Of a stretch of DNA of 64,000 nt, positions 62,539-64,000 are shown piece by piece (position 1 is the first letter of the stretch; each line of letters starts with the position of its first letter). Under the pieces are notes generated by a model. The model did not search any database and had not been told where the DNA came from. It was given only the letters and a program-made list of their open reading frames with translations. The position numbers and the translations under genes are program-made. This DNA is from Thermohalobacter berrensis (GTDB lineage Bacteria > Bacillota > Clostridia > Tissierellales > Thermohalobacteraceae): positions 1 through 64,000 of the forward strand of contig NZ_MCIB01000034.1 of the NCBI RefSeq assembly GCF_003609645.1, in the 5' to 3' direction.

Positions 62539-63156
62539 ATGAAAGATTTAAAAGAGATATTTGAAAGCAGAAGATCAGTTAACTATTTTGACCCAAATAA
62601 ACAAATAGACAATAAAGTATTAAAGGAAATTATTGAATTATCAACATTAGCTCCTTCATGCTTTAATCTTCAACCATGGGAGGTCTTAGTAATAAAGTCT
62701 GAAGAATGGAAGAAAAAACTATATAATGAGGCTTGTAAACAGGATAAGGTATTAGAGGCTCCGGTAGTATTAGCTATTATAGGAAATACAAGGGGCTTCC
62801 TTAGAGAAAATCCTATTTGGGATGAAAAAATAGACAAAGGAGCTACTGAAGAAGAAATACAAGGATATATAAATTATTCTAAAACAAAGCTTTTTCCATC
62901 TGAAGAGAAGAAAGTTGCTTTTGCAGCAAGAAATAGTTCTCTGCTTGCCATGTCAATAATGTATGCAGCAAAATACTATGGATTAGATACCCATCCAATG
63001 ATAGGATTTGATGAAGATAAAGTAAAGGAAGTTTTTTCAATTGATGAGGATAAAATAGTTACAATGCTTATAGCCTTAGGGTATCATGATGAGAGTAAAG
63101 AGTTAAAGCCGAGGGGAAAAAGATTGGGATATAATGATATAGTAAAAGAGTTTTAA
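62539..63156 (+). CDS. Nitroreductase family protein
   Basis: 205 residues. IFESRRSVNYFDPNKQI at the N-terminus and LAPSCFNLQPWEV (FMN phosphate contacts) mark the nitroreductase fold, with AIALGYHDE-like LIALGYHDESKELKPRGKRL near the end. It binds FMN and uses NAD(P)H; substrate unknown. AGAGGTG precedes ATG. Confidence 0.9.
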   Translation: MKDLKEIFESRRSVNYFDPNKQIDNKVLKEIIELSTLAPSCFNLQPWEVLVIKSEEWKKKLYNEACKQDKVLEAPVVLAIIGNTRGFLRENPIWDEKIDKGATEEEIQGYINYSKTKLFPSEEKKVAFAARNSSLLAMSIMYAAKYYGLDTHPMIGFDEDKVKEVFSIDEDKIVTMLIALGYHDESKELKPRGKRLGYNDIVKEF

Positions 63157-63165
63157 ACTCATATC

Positions 63166-63199
63166 AAAAAGGATAATGGGATATCCCATTATCCTTTTT
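63166..63199. terminator. Bidirectional terminator, 34-bp perfect palindrome
   Basis: Arms AAAAAGGATAATGGGAT / ATCCCATTATCCTTTTT with T on both ends. It separates the nitroreductase gene from the minus-strand redox genes. Confidence 0.9.
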
Positions 63200-63438
63200 T
63201 AAATAACTTCTTTTAATTTTTCAATAACCTCATCAAGGGAAGGAATTCTGCCTTCAAATAATATTTTGTCATTAACTACTAAAGCAGGAGTTTGTTTTAC
63301 CCTCATTTTTGCAATAGTAGGAACATCGCCAATAATTTCAAAATCTTCATCAGAACCTAATCTGTTTAAGGCCTCATCAACGATGGGCGCTAGTTTACTT
63401 CCTCCTCAGCAAACCATTTCTAGAATTTTAATATCCAT
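63199..63438 (-). CDS. Thioredoxin-like protein with in-frame TGA, likely selenocysteine
   Basis: 79 residues if TGA (63406-63408) is read as selenocysteine: MDIKILEMVC-U-GGSKLAPIVDEALNRLG ..., then VKQTPALVVNDKILFEGRIPS, a thioredoxin-fold pattern that keeps the cis-Pro (TPALV). AAGGAGG lies at the right distance before ATG, and the frame is open on both sides of TGA. The TGA sits beside Cys at the N-terminal end of the first helix, the redox site. A stem-loop fitting a bacterial SECIS begins 17 bases after TGA. The gene lies 12 bp after a CxxC thioredoxin-like gene and a permease, on the same strand. If TGA were a stop, a 10-residue peptide would result. Confidence 0.78.
63371..63388 (-). 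promoter_or_regulatory. Candidate bacterial SECIS element
   Basis: On the minus strand GCCCATC (63388-63382), loop GTT, GATG-A-GGC (63378-63371): a 7-bp stem with one bulged A. The loop is about 24 bases after TGA and begins with G, within the known limits for a SelB-binding bSECIS. Confidence 0.6.
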
Positions 63439-63450
63439 TTTAATACCTCC

Positions 63451-63690
63451 TTATAGGTTTTTATTAATTAATTCTTTAACTTCTTTTTTAGATGGAACCC
63501 TTCCAGAAACTTGAACTTTTTCGTTTATTACTATACCAGGTGTTTTCATAATACCATAACTTGCTATATCTTTAAATTCTGTCACTTTTTCAATTTTAGC
63601 ATCAATTCCTAATTCCTCTACTATCTCATTAGCCATATCATAAAGTTTTTGACAGTTTTTACAGCCGGGTCCTAGGATTTTAATATTCAT
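63451..63690 (-). CDS. Thioredoxin family protein (redox-active disulfide protein 2, TIGR00412 type)
   Basis: 79 residues: MNIKILGPGCKNCQKLYDMA with the C-x-x-C active site (Cys10, Cys13), KVTEFKDIASYGIMKTPGIVINEKVQVSGRVPS with the cis-Pro. This family often sits beside permeases of the DUF318/ArsP group, as here. GGAGG precedes ATG. It is the CxxC partner of the putative selenoprotein next to it; the two share the layout M-x-I-K-I-L and TP-(A/G)-(L/I)-V. Confidence 0.92.
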   Translation of the reverse strand: MNIKILGPGCKNCQKLYDMANEIVEELGIDAKIEKVTEFKDIASYGIMKTPGIVINEKVQVSGRVPSKKEVKELINKNL

Positions 63691-63700
63691 AATATCCCTC

Positions 63701-64000
63701 CTATAAAATTATATTAAATAAATATCCTACTAAAATTATTGACACTCCAGTTATTGATACAAAGATACCAATCAATTTTGGTTTTATAACCTTTTTTAAT
63801 AATATCATTTCAGGTAAAGATAGAGCAACTACTGACATCATAAAAGCTAAAGCTGTACCAACACCAACTCCCTTTCCTATAAGTGCCTCTACTACAGGGA
63901 TTGTTCCAACAGCATTTGAATAAAGAGGTATTCCTAGTATTACAGCTACGAAAACTGCAAAGGGATTGTTTGGTCCTGCATATCTTACTAGATAATCTGA
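63701..64000 (-). CDS. Permease, DUF318/ArsP-like (partial, start outside window)
   Basis: The last 99 residues, with three membrane helices. The segment GIPLYSNAVGTIPVVEALIGKGVGVGTALAFMM...SLPEMILLKKVIKP is typical of the C-terminal half of PF03773-type permeases. Some family members export organoarsenicals; others have no known substrate. It ends ten bases before the thioredoxin-like gene, so the three form an operon. Confidence 0.88.
   Translation of the reverse strand, partial: SDYLVRYAGPNNPFAVFVAVILGIPLYSNAVGTIPVVEALIGKGVGVGTALAFMMSVVALSLPEMILLKKVIKPKLIGIFVSITGVSIILVGYLFNIIL

Follow-up and report, generated by a model that had tools for sequence, protein, structure and literature searches.

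In the 2026 catalogue of prokaryotic selenoproteins, the thioredoxin-like domain PF13192 is listed for the Sec.1 and Sec.2 proteins of Brachyspira only (PMC13188914), and in both of these the selenocysteine (Sec) precedes the thioredoxin domain, in an N-terminal extension (PMC5330540). A UxC form is recorded there for the SO_0444 transporter as well (PMC13188914). In the metallochaperone ArsD, a vicinal pair of cysteines forms the conserved As(III) site (PMC12607644). The small protein analyzed here, in which an in-frame TGA is predicted to code for Sec, or the permease of its operon has points in common with each of these systems. It resembles the Brachyspira proteins in having a PF13192 domain, a Sec encoded by UGA, and a gene cluster with a Cys paralogue, but its Sec occupies position 2 of the former CxxC, within the domain itself, and there is no extension.

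Both by sequence and by fold, the closest solved structure is that of MTH895 (1ILO), from the MTH895/ArsE family (TIGR00412, PF13192), which has the same fold and aligns over the full length. However, members of this family carry C-x-x-C where the Sec protein has C-U-G-G, and the latter reaches only 49.8 bits with TIGR00412, under the cut-off of 62, whereas the CxxC paralogue from its operon belongs fully to the family. The CxxC proteins are also split in the tree from the Sec proteins and their single Cys homologue, with a support of 100/99; the grouping of the Sec genes as one clade is weakly supported (80/57), and the placement of the Cys homologue, with long branches, is unsure. Comparative sequence analysis shows a distinct Sec family and an operon structure for the locus.

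The likeness to ArsD (PF06953, NF033727) includes the thioredoxin fold, a vicinal pair in the same place, a GRYP-like C-terminal part, and operons of the arsenic type. AMCCSTGVC in ArsD is comparable to SLCUSTSMS in family members, and HMMER pairs the C-U of one member with Cys12-Cys13, although weakly. The differences are that Sec replaces one Cys, the third Cys is missing, and the operon has no ArsA. Neither ArsD model matches the Sec protein itself. Several family members match the Pfam model under its gathering cut-off of 27 bits (best seen, 22.9 bits) and two match the NCBIfam model weakly, and with scores below the cut-off, direct membership in ArsD was rejected.

The SaoT/Sao system and TsoC (NF040730, NF045708) also involve thioredoxin-like selenoproteins, in the case of SaoT together with an efflux transporter. 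SaoT, however, is a UxxC protein, and the Sec protein matches neither model; the CxxC paralogue has a weak match to NF040730. The permease of the operon scores 126.5 bits with SaoE (cut-off, 325) and 95.5 bits with the SO_0444 family Cu/Zn efflux transporter (NF033936; cut-off, 300), below the threshold in both cases. The GenBank-annotated selenoprotein form of SO_0444 has a UxC motif (PMC13188914), and our permease has U-S-C in a protein of the related ArsP_1 family. The Sec form of this Cys-Sec (CU) family is described neither by an NCBIfam or Pfam model nor by any entry of the 2026 catalogue, in a survey that covered sources outside the subscription literature. With this locus, the selenoproteins gain a widespread family in which Sec is the rule and Cys a rare exception, and near-Sec-only families like this one may be discarded by homology-filtered predictors, a limit stated in the deep-Sep paper (PMC12013277). 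The best overall explanation, which we regard as quite probable, is a genuine selenoprotein encoded by the last gene of a Sec-permease operon, with an inferred role related to metal(loid)s.

The Sec gene and predicted decoding of its TGA

The window, that is, the whole stretch of 64,000 nucleotides analyzed (positions 1 to 64000 of contig C34), belongs to a genome of 2.76 Mb in 40 contigs rated 100% complete. Its relevant features are collected in Table 1. The sequence-only reading had given the right coordinates for the gene but left the strand unsaid. It is the minus strand, the plus-strand frame over the same positions being riddled with stops. The open frame with a good ribosome site that had been described running through the TGA is there, with the ATG and 9 codons, the TGA, and then 68 codons up to the TAA. 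The Shine-Dalgarno sequence overlaps the 3' end of the upstream CxxC thioredoxin-like gene, and translational coupling of both genes is likely. The predicted product is MDIKILEMVCUGGSKLAPIVDEALNRLGSDEDFEIIGDVPTIAKMRVKQTPALVVNDKILFEGRIPSLDEVIEKLKEVI, with an N terminus around Sec of MDIKILEMVC-U-GGSKLAPIVDEAL, and the Pfam domain Thioredoxin_3 (PF13192) covers residues 1 to 75 (E value, 4.7e-15) across the TGA, in agreement with the thioredoxin-like protein with Cys-TGA recognized earlier. We searched all six reading frames of the window for a TGA read through from a start codon with a Shine-Dalgarno sequence in front, requiring 10 or more codons ahead of the TGA and 60 or more behind it. The Sec gene was the sole return, so its read-through goes beyond what is expected by chance. 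At its 3' end, the perfect palindrome listed in Table 1 is likely a bidirectional terminator between this gene and the nitroreductase-family gene (62539-63156).

Table 1. Coordinates of the features of the Sec gene and its operon in the window
Feature	Position	Strand	Details
Sec thioredoxin-like gene (predicted)	63199..63438	-	79 aa; Sec is residue 11, in C-U-G-G; ATG 63438-63436, TAA 63201-63199
In-frame TGA, predicted to be decoded as selenocysteine	63406..63408 (63408-63406)	-	Codon is TGA in 35 homologues and Cys in 1
Shine-Dalgarno sequence AAGGAGG	63446..63452 (63452-63446)	-	7 nt before the ATG; from the sequence
SECIS-like hairpin GCCCAUC-GUU-GAUG-A-GGC	63371..63388 (63388-63371)	-	7 bp, one bulged A; loop GUU at 63381-63379; covariation
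CxxC thioredoxin-like protein, paralogue of the Sec protein	63451..63690	-	79 aa; GCKNC; MTH895/ArsE family; TIGR00412, 104.8 bits (cut-off, 62); PF13192, 1.6e-30
ArsP_1 permease, C-terminal part	63701..64000	-	Gene runs past the window to ~64684 of contig C34
Perfect inverted repeat with T run, likely terminator	63166..63200		AAAAAGGATAATGGGATATCCCATTATCCTTTTT; shared with the convergent nitroreductase-family gene; from the sequence

The genome contains the whole machinery that had been proposed as a check, with selB (376 bits), selA (646 bits), selD (406 bits), and a tRNA-Sec (78 bits; cut-off, 47), all on contig C11. The selD gene has an in-frame TGA of its own, in GUAAK, which we take to be the known selenoprotein position of SelD, and it provides an internal control, a known selenoprotein within the host genome. 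We are close to certain, from comparison of sequences, that Sec is inserted at the TGA of the 79-residue protein. UGA codon 11 would be decoded by SelB and tRNA-Sec, directed by a hairpin just downstream. A general change of code or a suppressor, by which UGA would be read as Trp, Cys, or another residue, has nothing in its favor except the open frame, and we give it a negligible probability, as it is opposed by the full Sec machinery, the ordinary genes that end with TGA, the Cys found as replacement residue in the homologue described below, and the position-specific hairpin.

TGA is found at exactly the Sec codon of 35 homologous genes from many genera of Clostridia, none of which has TAA or TAG there, and the family has at least 35 genes. 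In the taxonomic family of the host, four of four genomes have a TGA gene, and two of them carry two tandem copies. At the level of the order, each of the 14 best matches (at least 75 bits) has a single TGA, and those that follow, below 61 bits, are mostly CxxC thioredoxins that lack it; a lower-scoring TGA match (G240) is a further member, with S-U-G-G. A wider profile search added TGA genes from the class and from the order of genome G451. Other candidates were set aside: the TGA of G159 is at the C terminus of a CxxC protein, and several other matches with internal stops had TAA or TAG. A search of plasmids gave seven matches, all below 60% identity and annotated as thioredoxin family or redox-active disulfide proteins. 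The one named public relative is Caloranaerobacter azorensis, and cultured anaerobes such as Caloranaerobacter offer small, testable proteins of this kind.

The only Cys homologue (VVCCKGGKL, with C-C-K-G and the second Cys at the Sec position) comes from the complete genome G553. Its best tRNA-Sec match has 46.4 bits, in three identical copies under the cut-off, and we read it as another tRNA. Genome G451, of the same taxonomic family, has both the Sec gene and a tRNA-Sec of 74 bits. The CU family is nearly Sec-only, with the Cys form rare. Within the order, selA is found in 13 of 13 genomes with a TGA gene versus 163 of 249 overall (P of ~0.003 by our own hypergeometric arithmetic, in which relatedness is ignored). 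Less in keeping with Sec decoding, two fragmented assemblies (G206 and G210) have the TGA gene and selA without a tRNA-Sec above the Rfam cut-off, perhaps because of an assembly gap or a divergent tRNA.

If the TGA were instead a true stop, the gene would be a pseudogene, the product of a sequencing error, or a case of translation restart. TGA is indeed able to end genes in the host, a GGAGG is present after it, and some relatives have an ATG soon behind. Yet the Sec gene itself has no start codon close behind its TGA, and the same codon is TGA in 35 genes from many genera, never TAA or TAG. The dN/dS ratio downstream of it is 0.08 to 0.19 (11 pairs of close relatives), which shows that purifying selection acts on the part beyond the TGA. 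Together with the Cys in the genome without a tRNA-Sec match above the cut-off and the compensated hairpin, these data make a true stop very improbable. The homologues do not end or diverge at the TGA, which would have spoken against the original proposal; 35 keep it and 1 has Cys.

The stem of 7 bp with a 3-nt loop starting with G, noticed earlier as a possible bacterial SECIS, lies 20 to 37 nt past the TGA and keeps a fixed place in the frame across the family. It is absent from the Cys homologue, and the Rfam search at the locus gave chance matches only. Its folding energy is unremarkable (z score, -0.11; mean of -0.49 over the 32 genes folded), so we tested covariation instead. Among 27 distinct sequences, whose relatedness inflates the counts, 88.4% of the cells were paired, versus 81.7% in shuffles and 24 to 47% when the stem was slid, and 13 cells had changed on both sides, versus 2.0 in shuffles, with none of 500 shuffles reaching the observed score.

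It could be argued that this is mere conservation of the protein and that Sec is inserted through another signal, as the hairpin sits in a conserved peptide (APIVDEA) and its energy is no lower than that of shuffles. However, ATC encodes the Ile of the stem in 23 of 26 instances, compared with 60 of 314 in other parts of these genes. In the Pro codon, the third base varies together with the base that directly follows the Asp codon (C-G in 22, T-A in 4, A-T in 1, and G-C in 1), and a change from Ile to Val is matched by a silent change from GAT to GAC. Such compensatory changes cut across codon logic, several of them through silent positions, and conservation of the protein is a highly unlikely explanation. 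The folding check proposed beforehand was thus not significant in energy but positive in a conserved stem with compensatory changes. The predicted Sec insertion is consequently backed by the Sec genes, the 35 TGA genes, the one Cys homologue, and the compensated hairpin.

Operon organization and the ArsP_1 permease

An operon with a permease and a CxxC thioredoxin had been described, and both are present, but the picture was incomplete. The gene order is an ArsR/SmtB regulator (with an ELCVC motif), the ArsP_1 permease, the CxxC thioredoxin, and last the CU protein, and the permease has a Sec codon of its own. The permease, a member of PF03773 (ArsP_1; 255 bits), has a second in-frame TGA beyond the end of the window (contig C34, 64396-64394, minus strand), in the context SPF-U-SCST. 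Within the order there are six such permeases, 80 to 100% identical, and the remaining matches (up to 65% identity) have no stop; in all 14 stop-free homologues that were inspected, the codon is TGC or TGT. Three further TGA permeases (in G1023, G1096, and G1081) make nine genomes in all. In the hairpin that follows the TGA, substitutions at silent positions compensate each other and maintain the pairs (UCCGAU/AUCGGA, UCCUAU/AUAGGA, and GCCUAU/AUAGGC), although the usual G is missing from the loop. Judged from these comparisons, the permease is a selenoprotein, and with its in-frame TGA the operon would code for two. A standard gene caller would break the permease gene in two at the TGA, and such software would probably end the small Sec gene prematurely at its own TGA.

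In eight of the nine cases, a CU protein adjoins the CxxC thioredoxin. A strict link between Sec permease and CU protein was rejected, as G246 combines a Sec permease with a CxxC thioredoxin but lacks a CU gene. Many bacteria have a member of the family next to a probable export pump of the metal or arsenic type, and in some of them the pump contains Sec as well. The role of selenium in metal(loid) export needs further investigation according to a 2026 review (PMC13188914), and the CU family, with the Sec permease in the operon, points to selenium chemistry in that process.

Active site and proposed role

The Cys-Sec pair that had been singled out is present here, in C-U-G-G, but does not define the family. 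Of the 35 TGA genes, 25 have Cys ahead of Sec, and the other ten have G, F, or S there (Gly in 8, Phe in 1, and Ser in 1), while the Sec column is invariant except for the lone Cys homologue. This indicates a single-selenol thioredoxin fold rather than a CxxC thioredoxin. The CxxC of the paralogue would have become C-U-G-G, with Sec as the one essential reactive residue, and the Sec protein has no resolving Cys at the fourth position of the former CxxC. By this comparison, a thioredoxin fold can rely on a lone selenol as its reactive residue, placed where the second residue of the old CxxC was. The AlphaFold2 model, built with 21 family members, is a confident thioredoxin fold (pLDDT, 94; pTM, 0.83) whose best PDB match is MTH895 (TM score, 0.75; E value, 1.7e-3), with ArsD at rank 39.

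Among the 31 loci with readable surroundings, where the losses of Cys amount to few independent events, 15 lie next to a gene for a CxxC thioredoxin, an ArsP_1 permease, or ArsR, and every one of these retains the Cys ahead of Sec. The other 16, which are stand-alone, retain it in 8 cases. About half of the stand-alone relatives lack a Cys beside Sec, so a two-ligand site cannot be the function of the whole family.

A metalloid or redox function had been inferred for the operon in the sequence-only reading. Export of a soft metal(loid) or organometal(loid) seems to us the somewhat likelier purpose; ArsR and ArsP_1 relatives occur in Cu/Zn as well as in organoarsenical systems. The Cys-Sec pair would bind the substrate and then hand it over or release it reductively, like Cys12-Cys13 of ArsD, and the reductant would be the CxxC paralogue or cellular thioredoxin. 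This hand-over, drawn by analogy with ArsD, is a tentative proposal. More speculative is the complete scheme of a two-selenoprotein efflux system, in which an ArsR-regulated PF(C/U)SCS permease would work with a near-obligate Sec carrier whose Cys-Sec replaces the vicinal Cys pair of ArsD, handing over soft metalloids or organometalloids.

The main rival is a purely redox selenoprotein, whose selenol would engage either the adjacent Cys or a client in a selenenyl-sulfide and recycle oxidised thiols (of the CxxC thioredoxin, the permease, or peroxides) without binding metal(loid)s. The thioredoxin fold, the tandem CxxC thioredoxin of many loci, the many stand-alone members without an operon, and the single-selenol members (G-U, F-U, and S-U) fit with this role, to which we assign a real though minor chance. 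It accounts less well for the lack of a resolving Cys at CxxC position 4, the recurrent linkage to metal(loid) genes (ArsR with ELCVC and ArsP_1), and the Sec that the permease has within its own PFCSCS motif. We favor a role as a selenol-based carrier or partner, with a soft metal(loid) or organometal(loid) as substrate, on the basis of the weak ArsD alignment of the C-U pair and the As(III) site that this pair forms in ArsD.

Several other loci of the family differ in composition. In L025 and L024 (genomes G002 and G003), a tandem second Sec thioredoxin has a two-residue insertion after Sec, and its C-U-S-T-S-M-S-K resembles C-C-S-T-G-V-C of ArsD. In L167 (G1052), a pair of Sec thioredoxins is found near genes for an ArsA-like ATPase, an ArsD-like protein with PCCCGPSDNCG, and an ArsP_1-type permease, surroundings that by inspection are an arsenic-type island. 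Last, in L177, L178, and L179 (G1076, G1142, and G570), the Sec gene is divergent from genes similar to FecB/FecCD/FepC-type ABC importers, which suggests another substrate context.
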